32,118 nt of DNA from Chromatiales bacterium. Its GTDB lineage: Bacteria > Pseudomonadota > Gammaproteobacteria > Steroidobacterales > Woeseiaceae. The stretch lies in assembly GCA_024679535.1 (NCBI GenBank), contig JAIBDF010000026.1, forward strand, positions 1-32,118, written 5' to 3'. Under the pieces are notes generated by a model. It made no database searches, was not told the DNA's origin, and saw nothing but the letters and a program-made list of their open reading frames with translations. Positions 9,100 to 32,118 of this stretch are shown in pieces. Every line of letters starts with the position of its first letter. Position 1 is the stretch's first letter. The position numbers were made by a program, and so were the translations under genes.

Positions 9100-10634
9100 T
9101 GTTGGCTCCTTTTCGCGAGCTCTCGGGCGATCCGTGGCGCCGTCCACAGTGACGGCAGTAATATCAAGGACACGGGAACGGCGGTAACAACTATAAAGTA
9201 CTGCAACGCGCTAATGCCGCCGGATCCGATCGAGATCAATATCATGGCGACGACGCCCATAATGACACCCCAGAAAACGCGTAGCAGTGTGGGGGGGTCG
9301 TCGGTGCCGGTCATCACCATCGATATTGTGTAGGTCATCGAATCACCGGTGGTAGCGACAAAAACAGTTGTCAGTATGAGGAACAACACTGACACCAGAA
9401 AGCCGAGTGGTAGCTGCTGAGTAATGGCAAGCAATGCGGCGGGCATGTTAAAGCCTTCGAATGGTATGGAGATGGCACCAGGGTTTGCCAATTCGTACGC
9501 AACGCCGGAACCGCCAACGATCGTAAACCAGAATGTTGTTACGATCGGTGCGACAACCGAAACGGCAATAATCATTTCGCGAATGCGTCGACCATTAGAG
9601 ATTCTGGCGATAAACATGGCCATTAGGGGACCGTACCCAAGAAACCAGCCCCAGAAGAAGACTGTCCATTGATTCAACCATTCGGTATCCGCACGAAACG
9701 TCGCCATCGGAATAAATTTTGACAGGTACAACCCCGTCGAGTGAATGTAGCTGTCGAAAATGAAAGACGTCGGGCCCATGAAAAGCATGAAAACCATTAG
9801 CGCCAGCGCAAGGAACACGTTAAAAGTGCTCAACAATTGAATACCGCGTTGAATCCCCGATACTGATGAAATCGTGTAAACAGCGATCAGAAAGAGAATG
9901 ATGAGCGACTGTGTCAAATAGGTGTTTGGCAGACCAAAAAGATCGTTAAGTCCATAGCTAACTTGCAGGCCTAGAAAGCCAATGGGCCCGACTGTGCCGG
10001 CGACAACAGCCACCACACATGCTGCGTCAACAAAACCGCCAAACCAGCCATGAAGTGCCCGTTCGCCAAACACTGGATATAAGAGCGTGCGTGGCTTCAG
10101 CGGCAGGCCTTTGTCGTAGTGCAAATGCATGAAGACAATAGTCGTCAGGCTGCCGAGGATTGCCCATGCAAGAAACCCCCAATGCATATAGCTTTGGGCT
10201 AATGCAGGATAAACAGCGGCGGGCGTCTCCGCCGCAACGTCATAAAGCGGTGGAGGGGACGTGAAATGCGCCATGGGTTCCGCCGCAGCAAAAAAGACAC
10301 CTCCACCGGCCAAGAGTGTGCACATGATGATGGCAAACCACTTGAACGTACCTATTTCCGGCTGCGCAAGATTACCCAGCCGCACCCTGCCCGATCCGGA
10401 TAGCGCGACGTAGATTCCGACCAGGAACGTACTCAGGAGCAACACTTGCCAGTAAGCGCCGAATAACCTGACTGAGGTCGCATATGCACCATCGACCGAA
10501 GCTGACAAGAAATTGATATCAACGATGGCGGTGCCGACGAACGCGGTCAGGAAACCGCCGCTGACAATGAATGTCGGCCAATCAACGGCGCGAGCGGAGA
10601 AGCGCTCCGGATCATGTTGTGCGTGACTCTTCAT
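9096..10634 (-). CDS. BCCT-family transporter (2), divergent signature
   Basis: A 512-residue membrane protein with about 12 hydrophobic segments, homologous to the BCCT carrier that follows it. The central motif is changed: WTVFFWGWFLGYGPLMAMFI then ARISNGRRIREM, so the WAWW-x-SW-x-PF core of typical BCCT proteins becomes WGWF-LGY-GPL. Conserved family segments such as MHWGFLAWAI and HYDKGLPLKPRTLLYPVFGE are present. Loss of cage tryptophans points to a substrate other than plain glycine betaine, or to a partner role with the neighbouring carrier. ATG 10634 overlaps the preceding stop (TAATG) and the 3' end overlaps the next gene by four bases, so all three are translationally coupled. Two adjacent BCCT genes in one operon suggest two related substrates. 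Confidence 0.87.
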   Translation of the reverse strand: MKSHAQHDPERFSARAVDWPTFIVSGGFLTAFVGTAIVDINFLSASVDGAYATSVRLFGAYWQVLLLSTFLVGIYVALSGSGRVRLGNLAQPEIGTFKWFAIIMCTLLAGGGVFFAAAEPMAHFTSPPPLYDVAAETPAAVYPALAQSYMHWGFLAWAILGSLTTIVFMHLHYDKGLPLKPRTLLYPVFGERALHGWFGGFVDAACVVAVVAGTVGPIGFLGLQVSYGLNDLFGLPNTYLTQSLIILFLIAVYTISSVSGIQRGIQLLSTFNVFLALALMVFMLFMGPTSFIFDSYIHSTGLYLSKFIPMATFRADTEWLNQWTVFFWGWFLGYGPLMAMFIARISNGRRIREMIIAVSVVAPIVTTFWFTIVGGSGVAYELANPGAISIPFEGFNMPAALLAITQQLPLGFLVSVLFLILTTVFVATTGDSMTYTISMVMTGTDDPPTLLRVFWGVIMGVVAMILISIGSGGISALQYFIVVTAVPVSLILLPSLWTAPRIARELAKRSQH

Positions 10635-11371
10635 TACGACTCCCCAGCACCGAGTCGGGACTGTTCAGTCGCCTCGACGAGAACGGTATCGGCAGCTGTT
10701 GTCAGCCTGCGAATAAGATCCGGATCAATGCGCAACCCGTGACGAATGGTACTGTCATAGCGTACCTGCATGTCGTTCGATATCAACCATGACTCCATAC
10801 GCGTCCCTGAATGGTCGCCGGCAAGCGAGGTCGCCAGCGTTTCGATTGGCTGCCAGGAGTCCGAGCAGACGATGGCCAATGATGTGGCAGGCGACAGGTC
10901 ATCTGCCTGCCGCGGTATGCGCCAGAGGTCGGGTGTCGACTCGTGCGCGTTGATTGAGGACAGGTAAAGGTTGTTCCGGTCGTTCCAGTGCGCGATAGCG
11001 TGCAGTCCGCGACTGGCGCATACAGCCAGCGATGGCAGGATGGAGCGCCGGCCATGACAATTCAGCAGCTCAATGCGTGCGTAACCCTTGTCGACTGTAG
11101 CGGCGCAGACAAGATCGGTGACCATGCGACCGCACAACGCGACGCTGGAGTCGTTTGCATTCAACACCTCGGCGCCCGTTTCGTCGGCTATAAAGCTGAC
11201 CTCGATTCCAACGCCGCTCTTCAGTCTCGGCCATGTGGATGCAATGATATCCAGCCCGTTCATGCCACGCGACTCGAGCCATACGACGGCTGCAGCAGCG
11301 TCCTCATAATCCCCCTGGCAATAGCCCAGCCCCTCGAATGAGCGCTTGAGCAGAGACGACAATTCAGTCAT
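10634..11371 (-). CDS. DUF3726-like protein of unknown function
   Basis: A 245-residue soluble protein with no signal peptide. The N-terminal region (SLLKRSFEGLGYCQGDYEDA, followed by AAAVVWLESRGMNGLDII) resembles what I recall of the DUF3726 family: a helix ending in a Gly-rich turn, then an 'A..WL...G..G...L' helix. No catalytic motif is recognised. ATG 11371 overlaps the stop of the 580-residue gene (ATGA), and its own stop overlaps the start of the second BCCT gene. Such coupling suggests that these proteins work on the substrate brought in by the transporters. The family assignment is from memory of sequence pattern and should be tested by profile search. Confidence 0.6.
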   Translation of the reverse strand: MTELSSLLKRSFEGLGYCQGDYEDAAAAVVWLESRGMNGLDIIASTWPRLKSGVGIEVSFIADETGAEVLNANDSSVALCGRMVTDLVCAATVDKGYARIELLNCHGRRSILPSLAVCASRGLHAIAHWNDRNNLYLSSINAHESTPDLWRIPRQADDLSPATSLAIVCSDSWQPIETLATSLAGDHSGTRMESWLISNDMQVRYDSTIRHGLRIDPDLIRRLTTAADTVLVEATEQSRLGAGES

Positions 11372-13110
11372 CGACAGGTGGATTGGGCATTCTCCTGGTC
11401 AATTGCCGGCATGACCGGGAAATACCAGTCGTCCGCAAAATCACTGCCTATGTCGCTCGCCAGCGGAGCACCCTGAAACATCGTGTTCCGAACCCATAGA
11501 CGGGATTTCGGGTCAAATTTACTCACACCGAAAAACGAAAGTTTGCAGCGCAGCAGATTTATGGGAAGAACCTCTGTATCTGTCAAATTGGCATGAATGT
11601 CACCGTAGACCGACTGCGACATAGCCTGTATCCGTCGAAGGATGCTGCGCAGCTCCGGATACTCGATTGCGAATTGCGCGGCAGAAACACCGTTCTCAGA
11701 TTGCAGACACTCGCAGACGCGGTCGTAGCACTGCCGGACGTCGTATGCGACTGCAATTTTTATGGCTTTGTCCTCGCCTGGATCGACGCCGCACTGCCCA
11801 AGTCGCGGCTCCAGCTTTTCCAGCGATCGATACCAGAACACATCGCGACTGCCCGGTGCATCAAAGTCGATATTGAGCGCCCAGCCGTATCGGCTTTCGA
11901 TCAGGTCGCGGATGTCAGTGAGACGTTGATCCGGAATCAAATTCATCGATTCACTGACGCACAGGCTGTCCTCGAGCTCGTCGACCAGCTCCGGGTACAT
12001 TTCGGTCAGTAATGAATTGATCAATTCCTGCGTTTCGTAGCTCCAACTCAGCAGCGCTTTGTCGAGTAACGCCGACCAGTTAATTGACCGCTGATTCTCT
12101 ATCCACCGACTCACTTCCTCGAGTTCGGCTTTCGTTACGCCGTTACGCTGGTTTTGAACTTCGTTGTCCGTCGCTATTTCGGCCAGATGTTGGGCAGCTT
12201 TACGAAGTAGGGATTGCAGTAACTCGAATTTCTCCTCGCTCGCCTCGCCGGCTTCCACAATGCGCGCAAGTGCGGTTTCACGAACTTCAATCCAACGACT
12301 GATTAACTGCGGGTGATTGATCAGATACGGCGCCATACCGAGACCCGTAGCATTACCGATTCCCATGTAGCGCTTGATCGCGTCGTCCATCGGTACTGCG
12401 GTGTCCGGCGAGCGAGCACGCGCTATCGATTCGGCTTGTTCGAGACTAAACTGCCGGATCATGAAACAGGTGAACATCTCAGCAGCAAAGGGTCTCGCGA
12501 AATCGGCATGCATCAAGTGAACTTTTTGCCAGTCGGCCATGCCGAATTTGCCGCTGCCGTATACGGCCGTCGTTCGATACAAGTAGCCGACTTGCGCTAT
12601 TTTTGCGAGCGCAGGCTGCCGGCCGGCAGCCAGTTCAGCGACAACATAGTCGAAATTGCGAGAACTTTTATTGGCGCGCGATAACACTATGTTCCGTGCG
12701 TCGATTCTGCCCGCTTCTTGCAGGGGGACGTTTTGCCTGAGGAACTGCAATTGTTCTTCGTCGACATCACCTTCACACAGGGTTACGGTCATATCCCACT
12801 GATCGGCAATGACGCGGTCGCTGCGCTTTTCCGGGTCAAGGTGATGGGCGAAGACAACGAAACTGAATCTGCCGTGTGCCGCATCAATCGTGTAGATGGC
12901 GGTTCCGTAGCCATTTTCATCGAGATCAAACATTCTGCGCTGGATGACCCAGCGTTCATTCATAATCCGGCGCATCAGAATGCGCATGAAGCTCAATCGA
13001 TACGGATGCAGGGTTCCGAGTCGCTCAAGATCCATGACGTCATCAGCAGGCCGCAGCGGCAACGATCCCCGCTGGTTGGAAATCCCTGATGTTGGAAGCG
13101 GGGTAGCCAT
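11368..13110 (-). CDS. Conserved-looking 580-residue protein, not recognised
   Basis: I do not recognise this family. The protein has 580 residues, no signal peptide and no membrane segment, so it should be cytoplasmic. It is mixed alpha/beta: the first third is rich in aromatic and charged residues (MNERWVIQRRMFDLDENGYG, FSFVVFAHHLDPEKRSDRVI), the middle is helical (residues ~250-370), and the end returns to short strands (INLLRCKLSFFGVSKFDPKS). No P-loop, Rossmann glycine pattern, Cys cluster or classical metal motif was found. The gene starts 3 bp after the M19-like gene and overlaps the DUF3726-like gene by four bases, so it is a core member of the operon. It may be an enzyme of a new fold family or a partner of the DUF3726-like protein. 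Confidence 0.8.
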   Translation of the reverse strand: MATPLPTSGISNQRGSLPLRPADDVMDLERLGTLHPYRLSFMRILMRRIMNERWVIQRRMFDLDENGYGTAIYTIDAAHGRFSFVVFAHHLDPEKRSDRVIADQWDMTVTLCEGDVDEEQLQFLRQNVPLQEAGRIDARNIVLSRANKSSRNFDYVVAELAAGRQPALAKIAQVGYLYRTTAVYGSGKFGMADWQKVHLMHADFARPFAAEMFTCFMIRQFSLEQAESIARARSPDTAVPMDDAIKRYMGIGNATGLGMAPYLINHPQLISRWIEVRETALARIVEAGEASEEKFELLQSLLRKAAQHLAEIATDNEVQNQRNGVTKAELEEVSRWIENQRSINWSALLDKALLSWSYETQELINSLLTEMYPELVDELEDSLCVSESMNLIPDQRLTDIRDLIESRYGWALNIDFDAPGSRDVFWYRSLEKLEPRLGQCGVDPGEDKAIKIAVAYDVRQCYDRVCECLQSENGVSAAQFAIEYPELRSILRRIQAMSQSVYGDIHANLTDTEVLPINLLRCKLSFFGVSKFDPKSRLWVRNTMFQGAPLASDIGSDFADDWYFPVMPAIDQENAQSTCR

Positions 13111-21439: not shown

Positions 21440-21739
21440 ACAATTTCCCCCAAGTCGTATTTTTTATGATGACGACACCGAATATAACAGCCAGAAGTCC
21501 GGTATACGCTCTAATTGCGACATCAACTATCCAAATTGGGACACATTAGCGTTTCTAATGGCCCAATTCGACTCCGCCACCGTGGTTTCTAGCCTCTGGC
21601 GGGTCCGTGTCGTTTTTAGTCGTATTAATGTCGCATAGAAGAACGCAGTATCGCAGTATCTGGAACAAACTGGCGAACTGTCTACTTCTTCGAAGGGCCG
21701 CGTTGTGGTTAAGACGATCAGTACCACTTGGGTATACCA
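21440..21739. promoter_or_regulatory. Divergent intergenic region between receptor and methyltransferase operon
   Basis: This 300-bp gap separates two divergent transcripts and must hold both promoters. It is lower in GC than its flanks. It contains a long imperfect hairpin (21534-21568), a 9-bp direct repeat AGTCGTATT (21453-21461 and 21618-21626), and a tandem 8-mer CGCAGTAT (21644-21651 and 21652-21659). No cobalamin or SAM riboswitch consensus is recognisable, and no convincing ORF is present. Specific -35/-10 boxes could not be chosen with confidence. Confidence 0.6.
21534..21568. promoter_or_regulatory. Imperfect hairpin / operator-like dyad
   Basis: AATTGGG and CCCAATT (21534-21540 and 21562-21568) enclose a perfect inner stem CATTAG-CGTTT-CTAATG (21544-21560), with bulges of 3 and 1 bases between outer and inner arms. 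There is no T-run, so it is not a terminator. It is centred about 190 bp from the methyltransferase start and 110 bp from the receptor start, a position suited to a shared operator or a structured leader element. Function is inferred from symmetry. Confidence 0.45.
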
Positions 21740-23275
21740 ATGAGCGCCAGACCGCGAAAAAAACGCGGCCGGTCTGCGAAGCGGGCTGCGAGACAGCGAG
21801 CGGCGACATCGACGGCAACCTGGATTGATCGCAAGATCCCTTATCTGGAGCTGCTTGATGAAGCGGGGCTCGAACTCATTGAGGACAATGCGGAAACGGT
21901 GCTTGAGGAAATCGGTATCGAGTTTCGCGATTTTCCGAGCGCGCTCGAACTTCTGAAAAATGCCGGTGCTGATGTCGATGGCGAACGCGTGCGCTTCCCG
22001 CGCGGTCTATGCCGCTCGATAATAAAAGCGAGTGCGCCATCCGAATTCAAGCAGCACGCGCGTAATCCGGAACGTAGCGTCATGATCGGCGGGGATCGTA
22101 CGGTTCTGGTGCCGGCCTACGGCTCTCCATTTGTGCGCTGTCTCGATCAAGGCAGGCGCTACGCGACGATCGAAGACTTTCGCAATTTCGTGAAGCTGGC
22201 GTACATGAGTCCGGGCCTGCACCACTCAGGAGGAACCATTTGTGAGCCTGTGGACGTCCCGGTCAACAAACGTCACTTCGACATGATCTACAGTCACATC
22301 AAGTACAGTGACAAGCCCTTTATGGGATCGGTCACGGCACCTGACCGTGCGCAGGATACAGTCGATATGGCGAAGATCGTATTCGGTGACGATTTCATCC
22401 AGGAAAATACGGTTCTGACCAGTCTCATCAATGCCAACTCGCCGCTGACGTTTGACGCAACGATGCTCGGTGCCGCCACCGTCTATGCGGAAAACAATCA
22501 GGCAACGATGATTTCGCCATTCCTGATCGCCGGTGCAATGTCGCCTGTAACAGTCGCCGGTACGGTCACACAGATTCTCGCCGAGGCGTTGGCCGGGATT
22601 GCCTATGTGCAGCTCGTGCGACCGGGTGCGCCGGTTGTCTTCGGTACCTTCGCCGCCGCCGTCTCGATGCAATCCGGAGCGCCGACGTTCGGTACACCAG
22701 AACCAAGTCAGATCATGTATGTCGTCGCACAACTTGCGCGACGACTGGGCCTGCCGTTTCGCAGTGGCGGCAGCTTGTGTGGGTCGAAGATTCCGGATGC
22801 ACAAGCAGCCTATGAATCGGCAAATACGCTGCAGACTTCAGCGCTGGCTGGGGTTAATTTCATGTTGCACACAGCCGGCTGGCTTGAGGGCGGCTTGGCG
22901 ATGGGCTATGAAAAATTCATTATGGATGCGGATCAGGCGAACATGCTTGCGATACTGCTTGGCGGGGTCGACCTTTCCGAGAACGGTCAGGCGATGAACG
23001 CGCTGCGCGAAGTGGGGCCGGGCTCGCACTTTCTCGGGGCAGCACACACGCAAGCGAATTTCGAGACGGCGTTCTACCGCTCGTCCATAGCCGACAGCAA
23101 CAGCTTCGAGCAGTGGGAACAGGATGGTTCTCAGGATGCGCCGGCGCGAGCCAATGCGATATGGAAGAAAATGCTTAGCGAGTATGAAGCGCCGCCGCTC
23201 GATCCGGCTATTGACGAAGAACTGACCAGTTTCATCGAGCGCCGCAAGTCAGAGTTCGATGACAGGGACTATTAG
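21740..23275 (+). CDS. Non-pyrrolysine MttB-family corrinoid-dependent methyltransferase
   Basis: A 511-residue member of the trimethylamine methyltransferase (MttB, COG5598) superfamily. It moves a methyl group from a quaternary amine to a Co(I) corrinoid protein. The reading frame has no in-frame UAG, so it is of the pyrrolysine-free type that includes the glycine betaine enzyme MtgB. Family segments include YATIEDFRNFVKLAYMSPGL, INANSPLTFDATMLGAATVY, AGTVTQILAEALAGIAYVQL and RSGGSLCGSKIPDAQAAYES (residues 341-360, C-terminal barrel region). The N-terminus is unusual: 10 of the first 20 residues are Arg or Lys. ATG 21740 is chosen; an in-frame TTG lies 12 bases upstream. First gene of the operon, 13 bp before the corrinoid protein. 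Substrate is probably glycine betaine or a related betaine, inferred from neighbours. Confidence 0.9.
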   Translation: MSARPRKKRGRSAKRAARQRAATSTATWIDRKIPYLELLDEAGLELIEDNAETVLEEIGIEFRDFPSALELLKNAGADVDGERVRFPRGLCRSIIKASAPSEFKQHARNPERSVMIGGDRTVLVPAYGSPFVRCLDQGRRYATIEDFRNFVKLAYMSPGLHHSGGTICEPVDVPVNKRHFDMIYSHIKYSDKPFMGSVTAPDRAQDTVDMAKIVFGDDFIQENTVLTSLINANSPLTFDATMLGAATVYAENNQATMISPFLIAGAMSPVTVAGTVTQILAEALAGIAYVQLVRPGAPVVFGTFAAAVSMQSGAPTFGTPEPSQIMYVVAQLARRLGLPFRSGGSLCGSKIPDAQAAYESANTLQTSALAGVNFMLHTAGWLEGGLAMGYEKFIMDADQANMLAILLGGVDLSENGQAMNALREVGPGSHFLGAAHTQANFETAFYRSSIADSNSFEQWEQDGSQDAPARANAIWKKMLSEYEAPPLDPAIDEELTSFIERRKSEFDDRDY

Positions 23276-23288
23276 CGAAGGAATCTTT

Positions 23289-24014
23289 ATGAACGACGAC
23301 GATCAAAATCTCGAAGCGACTGAAGACGAAGATATCGTTTTGGCGGAACTTGCCGATGACGAGCTCGTGGAGCAAATGCATGATGACCTCTACGATGGCA
23401 TGCGAGATGAGATCGAAGAAGGCTCGACGATTCTTCTCGATCGCGGATGGTCAGCTGAAAAAGTGCTGAATGAAGCGTTGGTCGGTGGCATGAAAATTGT
23501 CGGTATCGATTTTCGGGACGGTATTTTGTTCGTGCCGGAGGTGTTGCTCGCGGCCAATGCAATGAAGGGTGGCATGGCTATACTGCGGCCGCTGCTTGCT
23601 GAAACGGGTGTTAAACCGATAGGCAAGATGGTCATCGGCACAGTCAAAGGTGACATTCATGACATCGGTAAGAATCTCGTCGCTATGATGATGGAAGGTG
23701 CCGGATTTGAAGTGATCGACATAGGTATCAACAATTCGGTTGAGGATTACCTGGCTGCGCTCGAGGAACACAAGCCGGATATTCTCGGTATGTCGGCCTT
23801 ACTGACAACCACGATGCCGTACATGAAAGTCGTTGTTGATGAACTCGTAAACCGGGGCATCCGAGATGATTATATTGTACTTGTTGGTGGCGCTCCCTTA
23901 AACGAGGAGTTTGGTGCTGCAGTAGGTGCCGACGGCTATTGTCGCGATGCCGCACAGACCGCCGAAATGGCACCGCAGCTCATGGCAGAACGACGGGAGG
24001 CTGTTTGTGAGTGA
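23289..24014 (+). CDS. Corrinoid (B12-binding) methyl-carrier protein
   Basis: A 241-residue methyl carrier, cognate to the MttB-like enzyme. A helical cap domain (residues ~26-105, FRDGILFVPEVLLAANAMKG) precedes the Rossmann-like cobalamin domain with the base-off motif DxHxxG in GDIHDIGKN (axial ligand His124), then SALLTTTMPYMK and VGGAPL. The carrier takes a methyl group from the amine methyltransferase and passes it to THF via the methyltransferase at 26390. GAAGGA precedes ATG 23289. The first 25 residues carry 12 Asp/Glu and no Lys/Arg, and the first 45 carry 20 acidic residues, an acidic tail not needed for the cap fold. Overlaps the DUF1638 gene by 8 bases. Confidence 0.94.
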   Translation: MNDDDQNLEATEDEDIVLAELADDELVEQMHDDLYDGMRDEIEEGSTILLDRGWSAEKVLNEALVGGMKIVGIDFRDGILFVPEVLLAANAMKGGMAILRPLLAETGVKPIGKMVIGTVKGDIHDIGKNLVAMMMEGAGFEVIDIGINNSVEDYLAALEEHKPDILGMSALLTTTMPYMKVVVDELVNRGIRDDYIVLVGGAPLNEEFGAAVGADGYCRDAAQTAEMAPQLMAERREAVCE

Positions 24015-24636
24015 GTCAATTCTTGTCATCGCCTGTGGTGCGCTTGCCCGCGAAATCATTGCTCTAAAACGCCAATATGGCTGGGATCATCTGGATATGC
24101 AGTGCATCGACGCGCGCCTGCATAACCGACCCGCATTGATTCCCGAAAGATTGCAGCAAAAAATTCACGAGAACACTGGCCGATACAACCGGATTTTCGT
24201 CGCCTACGCGGATTGTGGCACTGGCGGCGCGATCGACCGGGTTCTCGAAGAAGAGGGTATCGAGCGCTTGCCAGGTGCTCATTGCTATCAGTTCTTCGCC
24301 GGGGAGCAGCGTTTCAATACCCTGTCCGAAGCGGAACCTGGCACGTTTTATCTCACGGACTTTCTCGTCCGCAATTTTGAGAAGCTCGTTGTTCAGCCAC
24401 TGAAACTGGATCGCTACCCCCAGTTGCGGGATGCGTACTTCGGCAATTACCGCAAGTTGGTATTTTTGTCGCAATCAAGCGATCCGAAGCTACTTGATGC
24501 CGCTAAACAGGCAGCTATGCGCCTTGACCTCGAATTTGAACAGGTCCACACCGGGTTCGGTGGACTCGAGCAAGGCCTGAATGAATTCGTCACCGAGCAG
24601 GAATATGGTCAAGAAGACTCTCGTTTACTGGCGTGA
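24007..24636 (+). CDS. DUF1638 protein linked to corrinoid methyl transfer
   Basis: A 209-residue soluble protein that I assign to DUF1638, a family found next to MttB-type and other corrinoid methyltransferase genes. Characteristic segments are ILVIACGALAREI (N-terminal strand and turn), IDARLHNRPALIPERLQQKI, RIFVAYADCGTGGAID and GAHCYQFFAGEQRF. Conserved Cys and His in these segments (Cys of ACGA, DCGTGG, HCYQF) could bind a metal or cobalt-corrinoid ligand. GTG 24007 is the start: GGGAGG lies 6 bases upstream and the gene overlaps the corrinoid protein's stop. Function is not known; a role in corrinoid loading, repair or chaperoning is plausible from context. Confidence 0.82.
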   Translation: MSESILVIACGALAREIIALKRQYGWDHLDMQCIDARLHNRPALIPERLQQKIHENTGRYNRIFVAYADCGTGGAIDRVLEEEGIERLPGAHCYQFFAGEQRFNTLSEAEPGTFYLTDFLVRNFEKLVVQPLKLDRYPQLRDAYFGNYRKLVFLSQSSDPKLLDAAKQAAMRLDLEFEQVHTGFGGLEQGLNEFVTEQEYGQEDSRLLA

Positions 24637-24910
24637 TATTCCGGCGCAGGTCATCGTACAACGGGGCCGCCGCCGCGAAAAAGTAAAGTTAAGCTCGCGT
24701 TTTCATGAAGCGATCGACCGTGCCGCAATGCGTGCGGGCAAGGGCGGCAGCGACGCGTATCTGTCGGAATGGCGTCGTGAATCAATTCTGCTCGAGACAA
24801 CAGAGGATCTGGGTGAAATTGCCAGGTGTGTGGCCAGCGAGTTCGAGACAAAGTTCAGTGATCAGCGATTGCATGAATTGATTCGCAGTCACGGGTCGGC
24901 GGGCGACTGA
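24605..24910 (+). CDS. Small 'virulence factor' domain protein (PF13769-like)
   Basis: A 101-residue basic protein. The sequence KTLVYWRDIPAQVIVQRGRR, then FHEAIDRAAMRAGKGGSDAY and LSEWRRE matches the small family named 'virulence factor' in databases, a name that says nothing about function. In proteobacteria this family recurs beside MttB-type methyltransferase and MetV/MetF genes, as seen here. AGCAGGAAT gives the ribosome-binding site for ATG 24605, 32 bases inside the DUF1638 gene, so the two are translationally coupled. No catalytic residues are evident; a small subunit or assembly factor for the methyltransferase or the MetV/MetF complex is a reasonable guess. Confidence 0.75.
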   Translation: MVKKTLVYWRDIPAQVIVQRGRRREKVKLSSRFHEAIDRAAMRAGKGGSDAYLSEWRRESILLETTEDLGEIARCVASEFETKFSDQRLHELIRSHGSAGD

Positions 24911-24915
24911 TAGTC

Positions 24916-25395
24916 ATGTATTGGATGCGAAGCTGGTCTGTTCGAAATGCGCGTATGCTCGAGAAGCTTTATTCGCGCTTCGAATGGCTGCTTGTTAAGG
25001 CGGATCCCGTTCTACAAAAGATTGGCTACGAAAAACTCGATCGTCCATTTGCAGGCGTTGAAAAAGTGACCAAGGGTTTCTTGCTTGACTCACAAAGTTG
25101 TGGTCAATGCATCGTTGGCTACACCGGACTGTCGTGCCCGATGAACTGCCCGAAAAAGATGCGTAATGGCCCATGTGGCGGCGTTCGTCCCGATGGTCGG
25201 TGCGAAGTTGATCCGGAGATGGACTGTGTTTGGGTGCAGGCCTGGGAAGGCAACAAGCGGTTGCATGCCAACAATTACCCGATTCAGATCGTTCAGCCAC
25301 CTGTCGACAACCGTCTTTTGGGTCATTCAGCGTGGCTCCATGAATTGCAGAAAAAACGGCAGACGATCTCCGGGCTGAACGACGATGCGGTTTGA
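24916..25395 (+). CDS. metV: MetV-like zinc/Fe-S protein (MTHFR C-terminal domain)
   Basis: A 159-residue protein matching the 'methylenetetrahydrofolate reductase C-terminal' family, the MetV partner of MetF in acetogens. Seven cysteines cluster between residues 62 and 104 (SCGQC, SCPMNC, GPCGG, RC, DC), a zinc- or iron-sulfur-binding pattern. A short N-terminal amphipathic segment precedes it (MYWMRSWSVRNARM, KLYSRFEWLLVK). In acetogens MetV gives the reductase an electron route other than NAD(P)H. Here, with MetF next door, the pair would run as a methyl-THF dehydrogenase, oxidising the methyl group removed from the betaine. The gene's end overlaps metF by 11 bases. Confidence 0.85.
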   Translation: MYWMRSWSVRNARMLEKLYSRFEWLLVKADPVLQKIGYEKLDRPFAGVEKVTKGFLLDSQSCGQCIVGYTGLSCPMNCPKKMRNGPCGGVRPDGRCEVDPEMDCVWVQAWEGNKRLHANNYPIQIVQPPVDNRLLGHSAWLHELQKKRQTISGLNDDAV

Positions 25396-26386
25396 CGATG
25401 AACCGGTGAATCCCGGCGAGGCGCTGCCAATACTGCCAGGTCATGCCTCGCCAGGCCGACTGGAACGCGTCCTGCGCGCTGGCGCATTTGCCGTTACCGC
25501 GGAAATTGCCCCGCCTGATTCGGCCGACCCGAATGAGGTGTACGAGCGGGCTGCCTTGTTCGATGGCTATGTGGACGCGATCAATGCGACGGACGGCTCA
25601 GGTGCGCATTGCCATATGTCGAGCGTCGGCGTGTGCTCGCTGCTAACGCGCCGCGGCTACGCGATGGTCATGCAGGTATCCGCTCGCGATCGCAATCGAA
25701 TCGCAATTCAGGGTGATGTCCTTGGCGCGTCGGCGATGGGCGTATCGAACATACTATGCCTGACCGGCGACAGCGTGGAAGTTGGCGATCATCCGGAGGC
25801 GAAGCCGGTTTTCGATCTGGACAGCCTGTCGATGCTTTCAATGCTGCGCAAAATGCGCGACGAGCAACGCTTTCTGAGTGGCCGCAAGCTTTCCGTTCCG
25901 CCCCGCGTGTTTCTTGGTGCCGCGGCGAATCCGTTCGGGCCGCCGCTCGATTACCGGCCGCACCGACTGGCGAAGAAGATTAAGGCAGGTGCCCAGTTTA
26001 TTCAGACGCAGTACTGCTTCGATATCGAGCGGTTCAGTGAGTATATGAAATCGGTTCGAGACATTGGTGCGCACGAAGAGGCCTATATCCTTCCCGGCAT
26101 CGGGCCGCTGGCGTCGGCGAAATCGGCCGAGTGGATTCGAAATAACGTGCCTGGTGTGCATATTCCCGACCCGATCATAAAACGTCTGAAAAGTGCGAAG
26201 GATGAGGCAAGTGAAGGGATCAGCATCTGCGTGGACCTGATTAATAAACTTGCAGAAATTGATGGCGTGCGGGGTGTTCATATCATGGCGTTTCGTCGGG
26301 AACACCGCGTCGCAGAGATTGTTGAGCGTACGAAGATTCTTGGGAGCAGAATTCCGTGGCATCCGGGCGTCGCTAGTGGAGATTAG
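25385..26386 (+). CDS. metF: Methylenetetrahydrofolate reductase
   Basis: A 333-residue FAD-dependent TIM-barrel enzyme interconverting 5-methyl-THF and 5,10-methylene-THF. Expected segments: FAVTAEIAPPDSAD (active-site Glu region), DGYVDAINATDGSGAHCHMS, MVMQVSARDRNRIAIQGD, NILCLTGDSVEVGDHPEAKP and GAQFIQTQYCFDIERF. It is longer than E. coli MetF at the N-terminus and resembles the catabolic or acetogen type that works with MetV. In this operon it most likely works in the oxidative direction, feeding methyl groups from corrinoid-dependent demethylation into the one-carbon pool. Starts 11 bases before the metV stop and ends 3 bp before the THF methyltransferase. Confidence 0.93.
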   Translation: MRFDDEPVNPGEALPILPGHASPGRLERVLRAGAFAVTAEIAPPDSADPNEVYERAALFDGYVDAINATDGSGAHCHMSSVGVCSLLTRRGYAMVMQVSARDRNRIAIQGDVLGASAMGVSNILCLTGDSVEVGDHPEAKPVFDLDSLSMLSMLRKMRDEQRFLSGRKLSVPPRVFLGAAANPFGPPLDYRPHRLAKKIKAGAQFIQTQYCFDIERFSEYMKSVRDIGAHEEAYILPGIGPLASAKSAEWIRNNVPGVHIPDPIIKRLKSAKDEASEGISICVDLINKLAEIDGVRGVHIMAFRREHRVAEIVERTKILGSRIPWHPGVASGD

Positions 26387-26389: not shown

Positions 26390-27286
26390 ATGACAGAAAC
26401 AGTACTGAGTTCACCAACGAAGGAAGTTCGTATCGGCTTCGATCGACCATTTGTGATTATCGGTGAGCGCATCAATCCCACGGGTCGGAAGATTCTCGCT
26501 GAGGAAATGAAAAACGGTGATTATTCGCGAGTCGAGGCGGATGCGCTTGCGCAGGTTGCTGCTGGCGCGCATATGCTCGACGTCAATGCAGGCATTCCGC
26601 TTGCAGATGAACCGGCAATACTCGCCGAAGCGATCAAGTTGGTGCAGTCGGTGACTGACGTTCCGTTGTCCATTGACTCGTCGATTGTTGCTGCGCTCGA
26701 ATCCGGTCTCTCGGTTTACCAGGGCAAGGCGCTCGTCAATTCGGTCACAGGCGAGGATGAATGCCTCGAGGCGGTGCTGCCACTTGTTGCCAAATACGGT
26801 GCGGCAGTCGTCGCGATTTCGAACGACGAAACTGGAATATCCGAAGACCCGGATGTGCGTTTCGAGGTCGCCAAGAAAATTGTCGAACGGGCGGCGGACC
26901 ATGGCATAGCGCGTGCAGACGTTATCGTGGACCCGCTCGTTATGCCTATTGGCGCCATCAATTCGGCAGGCAAGCAGGTAATGCACATCGTCCAGCGACT
27001 CCGGAACGAGCTGCAGGTCAATACTACCTGTGGGGCGTCGAACGTCAGTTTCGGACTACCCAACCGAAACGGCATCAACAGCGCGTTCCTGGCGATGGCA
27101 ATTGGCGCGGGAATGACTTCTGCGATTACCAGTCCACTGCATGAAGAGGTTCTGCAAGCCGTGATGGGGGCTGACGTGATGATGGGACACGATCCGGATT
27201 GCGCCAGGTGGATCAAAAAATATCGCCAGCCGACAGGCGATACGGGTGCGCGCGGTGGCCGACGACGCAGACGTCGATCGGCCTGA
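26390..27286 (+). CDS. Methyltetrahydrofolate:corrinoid methyltransferase
   Basis: A 298-residue pterin-binding TIM barrel of the MetH-domain/AcsE/MtgA type. It would take the methyl group from methyl-Co(III) corrinoid protein and give methyl-THF. Diagnostic parts are IIGERINPTGRKILAEEM, the Asp of HMLDVNAGIP, LSIDSSIVAALESGL, NSVTGEDE, VDPLVMPIG and CGASNVSFGLPNRNGIN with the Asn that fixes the pterin. It ends in an Arg run (GARGGRRRRRRSA) absent from characterised homologues I know. GGAG precedes ATG 26390. Its tight coupling to metF and the activase fits one pathway. Confidence 0.92.
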   Translation: MTETVLSSPTKEVRIGFDRPFVIIGERINPTGRKILAEEMKNGDYSRVEADALAQVAAGAHMLDVNAGIPLADEPAILAEAIKLVQSVTDVPLSIDSSIVAALESGLSVYQGKALVNSVTGEDECLEAVLPLVAKYGAAVVAISNDETGISEDPDVRFEVAKKIVERAADHGIARADVIVDPLVMPIGAINSAGKQVMHIVQRLRNELQVNTTCGASNVSFGLPNRNGINSAFLAMAIGAGMTSAITSPLHEEVLQAVMGADVMMGHDPDCARWIKKYRQPTGDTGARGGRRRRRRSA

Positions 27287-27308
27287 GCTTCGAACGGCGG
27301 ATAGAGCT

Positions 27309-29324
27309 ATGTCCACAACTGATGCGAAGATCGTATTTACGCCGTCGGGGCGTCGCGGCCGTTTTTCGCTGAACACGCCGGTCCTGGAAGCGGCGCGCAG
27401 CCTCGGGGTCGACGTGGACTCGGTTTGCGGCGGTCGCGGTCTTTGCGGACGCTGCCAGGTGACCTGTGCCGAGGGAGAGTTTGCCAAACATGGCATCGTT
27501 TCCCAAAGTGATCATTTATCACCCGTTGGTGACGTTGAAACGCGTTATGGAGAACGTCAGGGTTTTCTGGTGGACGGCCGTCGACTGAGCTGCCAGGCGC
27601 GAATCATGGGCGACCTTGTCATAGACGTGCCGGCGGAAAGCCAGCTACATCGGCAGGTGGTTCGCAAAAGTGCGGAATATCGTGACATTACGCTCGATAC
27701 GAGCGTGCATCTTTACTACGTCGAGGTGCAGGAAGCGAGTCTCGATGATCCGACCGCCGATCTGCAGCGATTGCTTCTGGCGCTCGCAGTTGAGTGGCAA
27801 CTTCAGGACCTGGCATGCGATCCGGTGGTGTTGGAAAGCTTGCAACCGATAATGCGCGAGGGTAAGTGGAAAGTAACTGTCGCGGTGCATGATCAATCGA
27901 CGATTATCGCCATCTGGCCGGGTTTCAAACGCGACGCTTACGGGGTCGCAATCGACATCGGTTCAACGACGATTGCCGCACACCTGTGCAACCTGGCGAC
28001 CGGCGAGGTCGTGGCAACAAGCGGCATCATGAATCCGCAGATTCGATTCGGCGAAGATTTGATGAGCCGTGTTTCCTACGTGATGATGCACCCGGAGGGT
28101 AGCGCTGAGCTGACCGAATCAGTTCGTACGGGTGCAAATGACCTGATCGCAGGGGTTGTCGCGGACGCCGGCATTGAACCCGGCGACATACTTGAAGCGA
28201 CGGTTGTCGGCAATCCGATCATGCACCATTTGTTTCTCGGCATCAGTCCGGTTGAACTCGGCTGGGCGCCGTTCGCGCTGGCAACGGATCGAGCATTGGA
28301 CCTGCAGGCGCGTCACCTCGGCCTTGCGATCAATGCGGGTGCCGTAGTCTATGTTTTGCCCTGTATCGCAGGCCATGTCGGCGCAGACGCCGCCGCAATG
28401 ATCTTGTCCGAAGAGCCGCACCTGCTGGAAGAGATATCATTGGTAGTCGATGTCGGTACGAACGCCGAAATCGTGCTTGGCAATCGGGATCGACTACTGG
28501 CCTGTTCGAGCCCGACCGGACCGGCATTCGAGGGCGCGCAGATCAGCTGTGGACAGCGTGCCGCGCCCGGTGCTATCGAGCGCGTCCGCGTGGACGCCAA
28601 GACATTTGAGGTTCGGTTCAGCGTTATAGGGTCGGAGCTCTGGTCCGATGACCCCGGTTTTGACGATTCAGTGAATAAGTTTGGCGTCACCGGTATTTGT
28701 GGCTCCGGCATCATCGAAGCGGTAGCCGAGATGTACCTGGCGGGTCTGGTTAGCGAAGAAGGGGTTATTGACGGCGACCTGTCGACTCGGACGTCGCGCC
28801 TGGTACCTGACGAACGTACATGGTCGTTCGTCTTGCATGACGGCAATCCAAAAATCACTGTCACGCAAAATGATGTTCGTCAAATCCAGCTGGCCAAGGC
28901 GGCACTGTATGCAGGTATCAAGTTACTGCTGGACAGAGCCGGCCTCGGGGAAGTCGATCGAATTCGGCTGGCCGGCGCATTTGGCAGTCATATCGACCCG
29001 CGTTACGCCATGATTTTGGGTCTGGTTCCCGATTGTAATCTGGAGAACGTCGAGTCAGCCGGGAATGCCGCCGGCACCGGCGCACGCATTGCGCTCCTGA
29101 ACCGAAATGCGCGGGCCGAGATTGAAAGCGTTGTTCGTAATATCGAGAAGATAGAGACTGCGGTCGAGCCGAAATTTCAGGAGTACTTCGTTGCCGCGAT
29201 GGCGATACCAAACAAGATCGACCCCTTTTCCAGGTTGTTCTCGGTCATCGACAAGCCGGTGAGCAAGAAGAATCCGGGTGACGATCCATCGCCGCGTCGC
29301 CGTCGCCGCAAGCGTGCCTCGTGA
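27309..29324 (+). CDS. RACE protein: ATP-dependent reductive activase of corrinoid enzymes (2Fe-2S + ASKHA)
   Basis: A ~671-residue activator that returns inactive Co(II) corrinoid to Co(I). The N-terminal plant-type 2Fe-2S domain holds Cys40, Cys46, Cys49 and Cys95 (VCGGRGLCGRCQV, LSCQA). A linker leads to an ASKHA-type ATPase (DUF4445/RamA-like C-terminal domain) with GVAIDIGSTTIAAHL, VVDVGTNAEIVLGN, SSPTGPAFEGAQISCG, GICGSGIIEAVAEM and RLAGAFGSHIDP. Unlike methanogen RamA, it uses a 2Fe-2S rather than C-terminal 4Fe-4S clusters, the usual bacterial form. ATG 27309 is preferred; an in-frame GTG at 27246 would overlap the previous gene by 41 bases. The protein ends in PRRRRRKRAS, again a polybasic tail. 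Confidence 0.92.
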   Translation: MSTTDAKIVFTPSGRRGRFSLNTPVLEAARSLGVDVDSVCGGRGLCGRCQVTCAEGEFAKHGIVSQSDHLSPVGDVETRYGERQGFLVDGRRLSCQARIMGDLVIDVPAESQLHRQVVRKSAEYRDITLDTSVHLYYVEVQEASLDDPTADLQRLLLALAVEWQLQDLACDPVVLESLQPIMREGKWKVTVAVHDQSTIIAIWPGFKRDAYGVAIDIGSTTIAAHLCNLATGEVVATSGIMNPQIRFGEDLMSRVSYVMMHPEGSAELTESVRTGANDLIAGVVADAGIEPGDILEATVVGNPIMHHLFLGISPVELGWAPFALATDRALDLQARHLGLAINAGAVVYVLPCIAGHVGADAAAMILSEEPHLLEEISLVVDVGTNAEIVLGNRDRLLACSSPTGPAFEGAQISCGQRAAPGAIERVRVDAKTFEVRFSVIGSELWSDDPGFDDSVNKFGVTGICGSGIIEAVAEMYLAGLVSEEGVIDGDLSTRTSRLVPDERTWSFVLHDGNPKITVTQNDVRQIQLAKAALYAGIKLLLDRAGLGEVDRIRLAGAFGSHIDPRYAMILGLVPDCNLENVESAGNAAGTGARIALLNRNARAEIESVVRNIEKIETAVEPKFQEYFVAAMAIPNKIDPFSRLFSVIDKPVSKKNPGDDPSPRRRRRKRAS

Positions 29325-29330: not shown

Positions 29331-30878
29331 ATGGCTGAGACGAGAACGACAGTAATGTGCAAAAGTGACTTGGTGGAAGTCACCTGGGAGTGCGGCGCTC
29401 ACAGCACTCTCCCGCACCTGTGGCTGCGCGATAACTGTGACTGCGACGACTGCCGGATTTCACAGACCAGCGAGAAGAAGTTCATCCTCTCCGACGTACC
29501 TCCCGACCTTGCGCCGGTCGAGGCCGACGTTGTCGATGGTTGCCTGCGCATTGTCTGGCCGGACGGTCACCAGACCATTTATGACAGCAAGGTGCTGCGA
29601 ACCGGAGGCCGCAGTCGAAGTGCGAACTGGTCGCCATGGCCGAAGCAATTTGTGCCAGAGCGATATGCATATCAGGCGTTCCTGGACGACGATCGTGTCG
29701 CTGCCGCCGCCATCAGCCTGTTTATGGATCAGGGTGCTCTCATCCTGAGCGAAGCACCCGATGTGCCGGGCACGCTCGAGATGCTCGCGCCACGCCTCGG
29801 ACCGATCCGGGAGGTGCTGTTCGATCGGATTCACAACGTGAAAGTTGATCCGGCCGGATACAATGTCGCGCACACGCCGTTGCCGTTACCACCGCATAAC
29901 GACTTCGCCAGTTACACGTGGCCGCCAAGCGTGCAGGCATTGCACATGCTGGTCAACGAGGCGAAGGGCGGGAAATCGTTCATCGTCGATGGTTGGTCGA
30001 TCCTAAGCACGCTGCGTGATGAAGAACCGAATTTCTTCGAAGTTTTGTGCACGATGCCGGTGCCATTTCGAGAGTTCGACAGCGATAACGAAACGTATGC
30101 GGAAGCGCCCATCGTGAGGCTCGATGCCAGGGGCCGCATTGATGGTCTGCGATTCTCGAATCAGCTCATGCAGACCATAGATCCGAATGACCCGGACGCG
30201 CTCGAATTTTATCGCGCTTACCATGCGCTCTGCCGACGCATTACCGATCCGCGGAATCGCTCGGTCTTCCGACTCGACGGCGGGGAAATCCTGGTTGTTG
30301 CAGCGCATCGCGTGTTGCACGGCCGTGAGGCGTTCGAAGTGACGGGCCCGCGGCACCTGCAAGACGCCTATTTCGATCTCGTTTTTGCTCATGACGCCGG
30401 GAACGCTGAGCTACAGGCAGACAGGGTGCTCGGCTGGCTGCGACAAATGGAAGGAGACTCTCCGTACCAGATAAGTCGCCTCGATCATTGCCTGCAAACG
30501 GCAACCCGCGCCGAAAAAGACGGTGCCGATGACGAGACGATTACCTGTGCGTTGTTGCACGACATTGGCGACATTCTTGCGCCGGCGAATCATTCGCAGG
30601 TGGCGGCTGCGCTGCTTGCGCCCTTCATTAGCGAAAAGAACCACTGGATCGTCAAGCATCACGGTCTTTTCCAAGGCTATTACTGGTTCGAATACGCTGG
30701 CCGTGATCCGAACGCGCGCGACCGATTCAAGGGGCATGAGCACTACGAAGCGTGTGCCGATTTCTGTGCACGGTGGGATCAGGTATCGTTCGACCCGAAT
30801 TACGTAATGCAGCCCCTTGAGCATTTTGAGCCGCTGGTCCGTAGCTTGTTCGCGCAGGATCCGAAACCCTATTTCTGA
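29331..30878 (+). CDS. Fused GBBH-like Fe(II)/2OG dioxygenase + HD-domain protein (TmpA-TmpB-like)
   Basis: A 515-residue fusion. Residues ~10-95 are a GBBH-type N-terminal zinc domain (Cys36, Cys38, Cys41 in WLRDNCDCDDCRI, and His80). Residues ~110-355 are a TauD/GBBH dioxygenase with iron ligands His189 and Asp191 (PPHNDFASYTWPP), His330 and the 2OG-binding Arg332 (RVLHGREAF). Residues ~365-515 are an HD domain: His386 (LDHCLQTA), His410-Asp411 (LLHDIGD), His421, His444 and Asp483 (RWDQ), the ligand order of PhnZ/MIOX-type di-iron oxygenases. TmpA (GBBH-like) and TmpB (HD) convert 2-(trimethylammonio)ethylphosphonate to glycine betaine in two steps, and a fusion would do both. However, Glu at -7 from His386 in PhnZ is Tyr379 here, and the PhnZ phosphonate-binding segment is not recognisable, so the substrate is open. 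Start could be ATG 29355. Confidence 0.87.
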   Translation: MAETRTTVMCKSDLVEVTWECGAHSTLPHLWLRDNCDCDDCRISQTSEKKFILSDVPPDLAPVEADVVDGCLRIVWPDGHQTIYDSKVLRTGGRSRSANWSPWPKQFVPERYAYQAFLDDDRVAAAAISLFMDQGALILSEAPDVPGTLEMLAPRLGPIREVLFDRIHNVKVDPAGYNVAHTPLPLPPHNDFASYTWPPSVQALHMLVNEAKGGKSFIVDGWSILSTLRDEEPNFFEVLCTMPVPFREFDSDNETYAEAPIVRLDARGRIDGLRFSNQLMQTIDPNDPDALEFYRAYHALCRRITDPRNRSVFRLDGGEILVVAAHRVLHGREAFEVTGPRHLQDAYFDLVFAHDAGNAELQADRVLGWLRQMEGDSPYQISRLDHCLQTATRAEKDGADDETITCALLHDIGDILAPANHSQVAAALLAPFISEKNHWIVKHHGLFQGYYWFEYAGRDPNARDRFKGHEHYEACADFCARWDQVSFDPNYVMQPLEHFEPLVRSLFAQDPKPYF

Positions 30879-30901: not shown

Positions 30902-32118
30902 GTGAAATCTCATGCAAGGGTAGTGGTGATCGGCGGCGGCGTCGTCGGTGTGGCGGCGCTGTATCACCTGGCGAAGAAAGGCTGGGGCGATGACGTCGTT
31001 TTGCTCGAAAAAGCTGAGTTGACGTCCGGCTCTACCTGGCATGCTGCCGGATTGTTACCGCTATTCAATATGAGTTACAGCGTTGGTCAGATTCACAAAT
31101 ACTCTGTCAATCTCTATGGCGGACTGGAAGAGGAGACGGGCCAGGCAGTTGGTTTCTCGAAAGTCGGCAATATTCGACTGGCGATGAATCAGGATCGCAT
31201 GGATGAGTATTATCAGTATGCAGCGACCGCGAAGACGATTGGCATAGATGTTCGATTCCTGACACCCGATGAAATTCTGAAGCTCTGGCCCCTGTGCAAC
31301 ATCGATGGTCTCATTGGCGGTATCGTTCATCCCGACGATGGCTATATCCAGTCGGCCGACCTGACACAAGCCCTTGCGAAGGGCGCGCGGGCGCGTGGCG
31401 CAACGATTTATCGCAAGACACTGGTCCTTAACATCGAGCAAACCTCCTCGGGCGCGTGGCTTGTGCAAACTGATCAGGGCGATATCACTTGCGAACATGT
31501 GGTTTCGGCAACCGGCAACTACGCGCGCCAGACGGGTGAAATGGTTGGCCTCGATATCCCTGTCATACCGGTTGAACATCAGTACATCGTGACCGAGCCT
31601 CATCCCGAGTTGCTCAAGCGAAAAGAAGACGGGTTGCCGGAGCTGGGCGTATTACGGGAATCCGATGGTGCCTGGTACCTGCGCGAAGAGAATGGCGGTT
31701 TCATCCTCGGGCCTTATGAAAACGGCGCCCCGTGCTGCTATGTCGACGGTCCGAGTCCGGGTGCCGAGTACGAGCTGTTCCAGGAGGACATAGAGCGACT
31801 CGTGCCGCATATCGAAGCCGCTATGAATCGCGTACCGGCGTTCGGAGAAGTCGGTATCAAGCAGGTGTACAACGGCGCGATCGCCTATACGCCGGATGGC
31901 AATCCGATCATCGGTCCGGCATGGGACCTCGACAACTTCTGGCTCAGCGAGGGGCACAGTTTTGGTATTACAGCGGCCGGCGGTGCCGGCTGGCAGCTTG
32001 CCGAATGGATCGTCGAGGGCGAGCCGACCATCGATATGCTGGGCGTCGAGCCACGGCGATTCGGCGACTATGCGACCAAGAGCTACCTGGTTGAGAAAAA
32101 CGAGGAGGCCTATGCGCA
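30902..32118 (+). CDS. Dimethylglycine/sarcosine dehydrogenase-like FAD enzyme, 3'-truncated by window
   Basis: The first 405 codons of a DAO-family flavoenzyme. VVVIGGGVVGVAALYHLAKK is the dinucleotide-binding motif, and SGSTWHAAGLLP carries the His that binds FAD covalently in dimethylglycine and sarcosine dehydrogenases. VIPVEHQYIVTEPHPELL, GGFILGPYENGAP and VYNGAIAYTPDGNPIIGPAW are typical of that group. The missing 3' part should encode a GcvT-like THF-binding domain if it is a true DMGDH. GGGAAG lies 7 bases before GTG 30902. After the corrinoid system removes one methyl from a betaine such as glycine betaine, this enzyme would demethylate the product to sarcosine or glycine and give methylene-THF. 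Confidence 0.88.
   Translation, partial: MKSHARVVVIGGGVVGVAALYHLAKKGWGDDVVLLEKAELTSGSTWHAAGLLPLFNMSYSVGQIHKYSVNLYGGLEEETGQAVGFSKVGNIRLAMNQDRMDEYYQYAATAKTIGIDVRFLTPDEILKLWPLCNIDGLIGGIVHPDDGYIQSADLTQALAKGARARGATIYRKTLVLNIEQTSSGAWLVQTDQGDITCEHVVSATGNYARQTGEMVGLDIPVIPVEHQYIVTEPHPELLKRKEDGLPELGVLRESDGAWYLREENGGFILGPYENGAPCCYVDGPSPGAEYELFQEDIERLVPHIEAAMNRVPAFGEVGIKQVYNGAIAYTPDGNPIIGPAWDLDNFWLSEGHSFGITAAGGAGWQLAEWIVEGEPTIDMLGVEPRRFGDYATKSYLVEKNEEAYA

Follow-up and report, generated by a model that had tools for sequence, protein, structure and literature searches.

A fused GBBH-type 2-oxoglutarate dioxygenase and HD protein in a putative betaine operon points to an uncharacterised HD family with a non-phosphonate pocket

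Introduction

In the TmpA/TmpB and PhnY/PhnZ pathways, a 2-oxoglutarate (2OG) dependent dioxygenase hydroxylates the substrate and an HD-domain oxygenase then cleaves next to the newly formed carbinol, as outlined in a 2020 review (PMC8177086), which lists three HD oxygenases. PhoF, a natural fungal fusion of PhnY and PhnZ, acts on aminophosphonates as one bifunctional polypeptide (PMC10574752). Here, we analyse an open reading frame (ORF) in which a GBBH-type 2OG dioxygenase is joined to a PhnZ/TmpB-fold HD protein. It lies at 29331..30878 on the + strand of a stretch of 32,118 nucleotides, referred to below as the window, from a Chromatiales bacterium of the Woeseiaceae (assembly GCA_024679535.1, contig JAIBDF010000026.1). 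An earlier interpretation made from the letters of this stretch (the sequence-only reading) had proposed that the fused protein hydroxylates and then oxidatively cleaves a trimethylammonium compound. It had also known of no described fusion of this kind; PhoF is a 2OG-HD fusion already in the literature.

Results

The ORF is a single ATG-to-TGA frame of 515 aa and is present in a single copy in its genome. Its N-terminal part carries a GBBH-like zinc domain (residues 11-90, 29361..29600, +; Pfam PF06155, 6.3e-14), in which C36, C38, C41 and H80 were read from the sequence and are taken by us to form the zinc site, their roles being carried over from BBOX. This is followed by an Fe(II)/2OG dioxygenase domain of the TauD type (residues 107-347, 29649..30371, +; PF02668, 1.7e-33) and by an HD domain (residues 365-515, 30423..30875, +), where the Pfam HD model matches residues 383-458 (5.5e-6) and the ligands are H386, H410, D411, H421, H444 and D483. 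With its HxD..H motif, arginine, TauD domain and zinc N-domain, the first half belongs to the TauD/GBBH Fe(II)/2OG superfamily, and Foldseek returned BBOX, TmpA and DfmD as its nearest folds. H189, D191 and H330, named earlier as the iron site, are invariant in a 39-row 2OG alignment, as are R332 and R341; the sequence-only reading had chosen R332 as the arginine, whereas the arginine of SRHLEGAY in BBOX aligns with R341, which is presumably the 2OG-binding one. The pN/pS values of both fused halves lie within the range between unfused relatives, pointing to coding constraint on both. Judged by Pfam, sequence and alignments, the ORF is real and its GBBH-type zinc, Fe(II)/2OG and six-ligand HD sites are intact, as originally described.

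Both halves score well below the cut-offs of the curated NCBIfam models. The first half scored 228.1 bits against TIGR02409 (gamma-butyrobetaine dioxygenase; cut-off 414.75) and 214.5 bits (1.9e-63) against NF049936 (TmpA; cut-off 400), and the HD half scored 40 bits against TIGR03276 (phosphonate HD oxygenases; 214.6) and 25 against the TmpB model (300). The match of the ORF to the Pfam MIOX family (PF05153) is weak, with an E-value of 0.0093 and 16 bits against a gathering score of 25.

The HD half is a member of a larger family, which we represent by 91 distinct sequences gathered by phmmer from the loci, leaving out PhnZ-type rows below 100 bits (L130, L153). The PhnZ/TmpB comparison set covers 23 of 25 loci, the other two (one of them L140) having been missed by the extracting motif search, and the alignments behind the results are A4 (49 rows) and A5 (83 of the 91 HD rows). 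The six metal ligands of TmpB and PhnZ (H..HD..H..H..D) are invariant in all 91 family members. In contrast, the phosphonate-type signature, consisting of the Glu of YxxE, the His of HDxGH, the Lys of H..AKRYL and the LQGG loop, was found in 23/23 of the PhnZ/TmpB set and in 0/91 of the family. A Tyr or Phe occupies the position of the Glu in 90/91 members; the residue after HDxG is Asp in 87/91 and never His; Gln replaces the Lys of H..AKRYL in 91/91; and in 91/91 the LQGG loop is missing and a later Lys has become Phe. Correspondingly, D414, Q448, F487 and Y379 of the window protein align with H, K, K and E in the PhnZ/TmpB set, and D414 presumably also stands where MIOX has its substrate-binding Lys. 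The sequence-only reading had not recognised the usual phosphonate-binding stretch of PhnZ in the ORF; the replacement of the PhnZ Glu by Tyr379 holds in the family alignment, but the TmpB alignment sets Tyr379 opposite the Tyr of YxxE, leaving the equivalence ambiguous.

An AlphaFold (AF2) model of the HD domain, with a predicted local distance difference test score (pLDDT) of 93.8, was compared with the Protein Data Bank (PDB) using Foldseek. The best match was PhnZ (E 2.6e-7, TM 0.70), TmpB followed at 6.1e-6 (TM also about 0.7), the PhnZ/TmpB entries together spanned 2.6e-7 to 1.1e-5, and the next PDB match beyond them came at E 0.051. The model thus predicts that the HD half folds like PhnZ/TmpB and unlike HD hydrolases. 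The pairing of a 2OG enzyme with a PhnZ/TmpB-fold HD enzyme, as proposed in the sequence-only reading, agrees with the Foldseek matches of both halves, and the grouping of the HD part with phosphohydrolases, which it had named as a counter-outcome, was not seen. No MIOX entry is among the 50 PDB matches listed for the model; on this ground and on its sub-threshold Pfam score, we rejected an assignment to MIOX.

The HD protein is therefore a PhnZ/TmpB-like scaffold with a different, non-phosphonate pocket. From the conserved six ligands and the predicted fold, we argue for the HD family being a di-iron oxygenase. A hydrolase, for example of a phosphate or CoA ester, would be in keeping with the general nature of the Pfam HD match and with the fact that most known HD proteins are phosphohydrolases (PMC8177086), and it could supply a missing hydrolytic step in two operons (L196, L239) in which no thioesterase domain follows the carnitine dehydrogenase. 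This explanation is improbable, given the clear separation of the HD model from hydrolases by Foldseek, the invariance of the six-ligand set and the recurrence of 2OG partners from two superfamilies. The literature searched (open-licence papers) yielded no description of this HD family or of its betaine context.

The sequence-only reading had pointed to TmpA and TmpB, and a fused TmpA/TmpB would turn 2-(trimethylammonio)ethylphosphonate into glycine betaine and phosphate. The folds of the two halves match those of TmpA and TmpB, the 2OG half matches the TmpA model at 1.9e-63, though below its cut-off, and glycine betaine as product would feed the operon described below. Moreover, the 2OG protein of L118/L180 exceeds the TmpA cut-off (422 vs 400) and yet is paired with a window-type HD protein, and five other HD-paired 2OG proteins have TmpA scores of 225-356, each above its own GBBH score. 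Against this stand the missing phosphonate-type signature and the loss of the TmpA cage and HTDNPYR motif from the window clade. In addition, in nine genomes (G469, G503, G507, G519, G523, G534, G570, G671, G719) a TmpA gene scoring over the cut-off has a phosphonate-type HD gene as its neighbour, and a window-type HD gene lies elsewhere; since both types occur in the same genomes, they are separate families. We consider a phosphonate substrate very improbable and, on the pocket residues and curated scores, rejected the TmpA/TmpB assignment.

Members of the HD family were found in 28/369 genomes of the class and 59/398 genomes of the phylum (E 1e-8; own genome counted in each). A tree was built from 113 HD sequences, of which 22 were obtained by in-frame extension, and 8 PhnZ/TmpB-type sequences. 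Neighbouring marker genes were positioned by tblastn because gene callers had mis-called the GC-rich loci. In one HD clade (support 0.99), a mechanical scan found a quaternary-amine marker in 43/70 members as opposed to 3/43 outside it (L120, L055, L128); these figures replace a hand-labelled count of 46/70 and 0/43. Directly upstream of the HD gene, a GBBH-type gene was present in 20/70 clade members (window included) and a PhyH-type gene in 8/70, each with 0/43 outside. At least one of the three features (marker, GBBH-type gene, PhyH-type gene) was recorded for 54/70 members against 3/43; all these counts are non-independent through relatedness, and the shorter flank is below 4 kb in 12 members inside and 5 outside. 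PhyH-type 2OG genes directly upstream of HD occur in ten other genomes (L182, L081, L086, L088, L194, L223, L244, L246, L248, L251; Pfam-confirmed in two), so PhyH-type 2OG proteins are a second partner type of the family. The GBBH- and PhyH-type pairs echo the known TmpA/TmpB and PhnY/PhnZ pairs. Among 13 separate 2OG-HD pairs of the window type, 11 lie with betaine-operon genes.

The neighbourhoods link the family to the breakdown of several quaternary amines. In six genomes of one genus from another class of the phylum (L196, L238-L242), HD lies inside a carnitine operon, between a BKACE-type gene and the carnitine dehydrogenase gene, with a divergent GbdR/CdhR-like regulator gene; the carnitine dehydrogenase of L239 scores 597 against a curated cut-off of 592. 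BKACE, CdhR and DMGDH (dimethylglycine dehydrogenase) are names that we presume for unscanned neighbour genes. In L196 and L239, the two such operons examined for a thioesterase domain, the carnitine dehydrogenase has a Lys-rich tail. The cluster of L180 combines a 2OG-HD pair with a choline-type binding protein, a carnitine dehydrogenase (413.7 vs 414), a BKACE-type gene, a second GBBH-like gene and two GbdR-like regulators. Elsewhere, MttB lies near HD in L083, L078 and L082 (in one case with two DMGDH-like genes as well), a GbcA-like Rieske protein in L079, SoxBA with GbdR-like regulators in L183 and L185 (L185 with MttB too), and choline dehydrogenase with a choline-binding protein in L237 (Rhizobium plasmid) and, as annotated, L122 (Pseudomonas plasmid). 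Outside the betaine-linked clade, the HD relatives L186, L188, L189 and L191 share another common neighbourhood (some of clusters c11, c21, c22, c23 and c24) without quaternary-amine markers. On a Phaeobacter plasmid (pDOK1-1-2, L123), the gene for an HD relative annotated as an inositol oxygenase family protein precedes one for a member of the sterol desaturase family and one for 3-methyl-2-oxobutanoate hydroxymethyltransferase.

In the window, the fused ORF lies in an operon on the + strand whose first gene encodes an MtgB-like methyltransferase of the MttB family (21728..23275, +; NCBIfam TIGR02369, 8.4e-80, below cut-off). This is followed by an MtgC-like corrinoid protein (23259..24014, +; NF047996, 2.1e-58, below cut-off), a DUF1638 protein (23926..24636, +; PF07796, 6.5e-29) and a protein assigned by family name only to PF13769 'Virulence_fact' (24581..24910, +), similar genes of which occur in some relatives' operons. 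Next come a protein of the methylene-tetrahydrofolate (THF) reductase C-terminal family (24916..25395, +; PF12225, 4.6e-25), a methylene-THF reductase-like protein (25385..26386, +; below cut-offs), an MtgD-like methyl-THF:corrinoid methyltransferase (26390..27286, +; NF005719, 360 bits, over the cut-off of 259) and a RamA/AcsV-type corrinoid activase (27246..29324, +; NF040756, 2.9e-116, below cut-off). After the fused ORF, the contig end cuts a gene for a protein that we take to be dimethylglycine-dehydrogenase-like, of which the N-terminal part remains (30902..32116, +; PF01266; 91% identical to the L016 protein). In the relative L016 this protein is whole (818 aa, with DAO, FAO_M and GCV_T domains), and its gene is followed by those for a GFA protein, SoxB (722 bits vs 529), SoxD (123 vs 116.5), SoxA (1423 vs 1164), a SoxG-like protein (120, below 144) and a GbdR-like regulator (447, below 480). 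The operon resembles the MtgBCD-type pathway for the aerobic conversion of glycine betaine to glycine (PMC12478193). The demethylation setting claimed by the sequence-only reading is borne out by these genes, which lead from glycine betaine to glycine, and by the quaternary-amine links in other genomes.

Two further features of the loci were recorded. In L017/L022 (contig of G009, 7132-7734) the methyl-THF:corrinoid methyltransferase ORF is partial (200 aa, match 152 aa), through a frameshift, a sequence error or a gene-calling artefact. Further upstream in the window, two adjacent BCCT (betaine/carnitine/choline) transporter genes (7552-10634, -) belong to a divergent cluster that also has genes for DUF3726, a protein without a Pfam match (11368-13110), an M19 dipeptidase, an aldehyde dehydrogenase, an Ldh_2 dehydrogenase, a TPR-sulfotransferase and a TonB receptor.

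Discussion

We propose that the locus encodes the non-phosphonate equivalent of TmpA/TmpB: two oxidative steps, attached to a glycine betaine demethylation operon, that end in the cleavage of a hydroxylated betaine; we put the probability of this proposal at about 0.45, slightly short of even. The GBBH/TmpA-family 2OG enzyme would hydroxylate a small betaine-like substrate. The HD enzyme would bind the resulting carbinol, activate O2 at a mixed-valent di-iron site and cleave the adjacent C-C bond, the carbon analogue of C-P cleavage by TmpB, yielding glycine betaine or a near relative. This product would then be taken to glycine by the MttB/MtgC/MtgD system, the DMGDH-like protein and sarcosine oxidase. 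Hydroxylation followed by cleavage is the most likely order by analogy with TmpA/TmpB and PhnY/PhnZ; the cleaved bond is more likely a C-C bond because the phosphonate-type residues are gone; and glycine betaine is the more likely product, being the one most useful to the operon. The ORF with its domains, the conserved ligands, the fold, the deletion, the operon and the recurring neighbour genes are computed results, whereas the oxygenase chemistry, the C-C cleavage, the substrate and continued function of the fused protein are inferred. Non-phosphonate cleavage, which the sequence-only reading had put forward as a serious alternative, proved to be the better half of its interpretation.

Several observations weigh against this proposal. 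The aromatic cage typical of GBBH and TmpA, whose positions we identify from the BBOX cage residues, is absent from the 2OG half: the window and 12 relatives have F164/H168/H181, with F192 after HxD, as opposed to Y/F/Y-or-F with N in TmpA proteins and F/F/Y with L in GBBH-like proteins (L168-L172), and HNDFASY stands in place of the HTDNPYR motif. Of the 2OG proteins adjoining HD elsewhere, five of seven have F/F/Y with N (L051, L056, L102, L122, L167), L118 has W/A/M and L019 has H/F/Y. The lack of a conserved trimethylammonium cage in the window clade counts against a simple GBBH or TmpA function, and in this respect the 2OG half does not support the sequence-only reading.

Eight relatives (L031-L038) carry the HD gene in an operon without a 2OG gene. 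Their loci have matches to HD, RamA, DMGDH-like, SoxB, MeTr (the methyl-THF:corrinoid methyltransferase) and MttB, and no GBBH-like 2OG gene was detected in the locus or elsewhere in the genome (E 0.001; listed completeness 82-97%). It follows that the 2OG step is dispensable, contrary to the obligatory first hydroxylation of the sequence-only reading. In the HD tree these eight are nested among 2OG-bearing members at several places, and the 2OG gene must therefore have been lost, or gained, repeatedly. In such operons the HD enzyme might use an already hydroxylated compound, carnitine being the obvious candidate. The carnitine clusters also hold dehydrogenase and BKACE-type genes (L196, L238-L242, L180), which would make HD cleavage of carnitine redundant; for this reason we do not accept straight carnitine cleavage as a settled function, and the HD enzyme might act instead on a different betaine, one that is hydroxylated or arises as a side product. 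Carnitine-like compounds suit the HD-only operons and the carnitine clusters, and another hydroxylated betaine is also possible.

The gene context has its own weaknesses. Quaternary-amine markers were found in 16/60 HD loci against 1/20 control regions, a weak comparison (one-sided p 0.033, relatedness ignored) in which some of the 16 are weak matches and L079 and L180 themselves supplied marker queries. Such markers were present in 7/21 further HD loci, leaving 58/81 scanned loci with none. Among the 13 separate pairs of the window type, L010 and L019 have no betaine marker close by. L019 is on a contig titled Acidimicrobiia, and its HD protein is 71% identical to that of the window, with an N accompanying the H/F/Y cage of its 2OG partner; it represents either a transfer or mis-binning.

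The fusion itself is the remaining difficulty. A search of 99 genomes, own genome included, gave matches in 25, and one open frame over both halves was seen only in the window. In relatives from the same genus and order, the two halves are separate adjacent genes. Overall, the fused state was found in one genome, whereas in 19 genomes or records a GBBH-type 2OG gene lies directly upstream of HD as a gene of its own, not counting L070/L071, where the 2OG gene is on the opposite strand, and L076/L077, where it is ~3 kb off. We placed the fusion point at F348/D349 (30372..30377, +) by DNA alignment and gap lengths against 12 relatives, all of which hold 109-115 bp more at the junction (154-160 bases vs 45 in the window between fixed points). 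Missing from the window are the hydroxylase C-terminus (~20 residues), the stop codon, the intergenic gap, the HD start codon and an FTAMxxGTxxDY segment, and the fused frame reads ...LQDAYF and then straight into DLVFAHD. From the alignment, a small in-frame deletion appears to have joined two neighbouring genes in one genome. We therefore rejected the fusion as a conserved architecture; it looks confined to one genome and is of modest interest.

The fused protein may accordingly be a damaged or transient product of this deletion, or the contig may contain an assembly error, with one or both activities impaired. We regard this as a serious possibility, yet somewhat less probable than our proposal. 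Besides the rarity of the fused state and the lost hydroxylase C-terminus, the deletion removes the conserved N-terminal M..GT..D motif of the HD protein (M in 78/91, T in 78/91 and D in 77/91 family members; P, Q and Y in the fusion). The full-length model has a pLDDT of 91.3 and a predicted template modelling score (pTM) of 0.59, but pLDDT falls below 50 at residues 337-344, and residues 341-360, including R341 and Y347, are drawn as a helix where we would expect a strand from BBOX. With the junction uncertain and a helix drawn there, it is doubtful whether the model places R341 and Y347 correctly in the 2OG site. Several points speak against a damaged product or an assembly error: the deletion is exactly in frame and all catalytic residues are kept; pN/pS of both halves resembles that of unfused relatives, though a recent event would not show; and a misjoin would probably need a longer repeat than the junction suggests.

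Compared with described systems, the proposed non-phosphonate module is closest to TmpA/TmpB of Leisingera caerulea, in that a six-ligand HD oxygenase follows a 2OG enzyme of the GBBH family, the folds match and glycine betaine is the expected end product. It differs in lacking the phosphonate-type HD signature, the aromatic cage and the HTDNPYR motif, in the frequent absence of a 2OG gene beside HD, and in being fused. The 2OG and HD order, and the PhyH-type partners of other family members, recall PhnY/PhnZ and PhoF, and like PhoF the ORF holds 2OG and HD domains in one polypeptide. Unlike those of PhoF as described, its halves are a GBBH-type 2OG and a non-phosphonate HD protein and not of the PhnY/PhnZ type, and its fusion is a deletion seen in one genome. 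MIOX has the same six-ligand order (PMC8177086) and would share C-C cleavage if our proposal is right, but is set apart by its weak Pfam match and its absence from the 50 PDB matches listed. To BBOX/GBBH, the 2OG half is related by its zinc domain, HxD..H motif and fold (24% identity to BBOX), and differs in its TIGR02409 score and its cage positions. The operon shares MttB-type, corrinoid, MeTr, methylene-THF reductase, RamA and DUF1638 genes with the MtgBCD systems of aerobic marine bacteria (Mausz et al. 2025, PMC12478193), as well as a DMGDH-like protein and, downstream in relatives, sarcosine oxidase. It differs in that an HD gene belongs to the operon, whether or not a 2OG gene accompanies it; the term 'HD domain' is absent from the main text of PMC12478193.

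The fusion is thus a curiosity that points to an uncharacterised HD family with the full di-iron ligand set of PhnZ/TmpB and no phosphonate-type residues, tied by gene context to the breakdown of glycine betaine, choline and carnitine. It is tempting, if rather unlikely as a whole, to regard the family as a new kind of HD oxygenase beside MIOX, PhnZ and TmpB, which would use a di-iron site to cleave carnitine, or a closely related hydroxylated betaine, at the C-C bond next to its carbinol to give glycine betaine in one O2-dependent step without CoA, would work with GBBH- or PhyH-type hydroxylases or alone, and would be widespread in the phylum. In any case, the family combines the architecture of PhnZ/TmpB with a pocket not of the phosphonate type and with betaine/carnitine neighbours, and poses a well-defined question. 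If the family does prove to be an oxygenase, it would open a new way into glycine betaine and extend the HD oxygenases to a new class of substrates.

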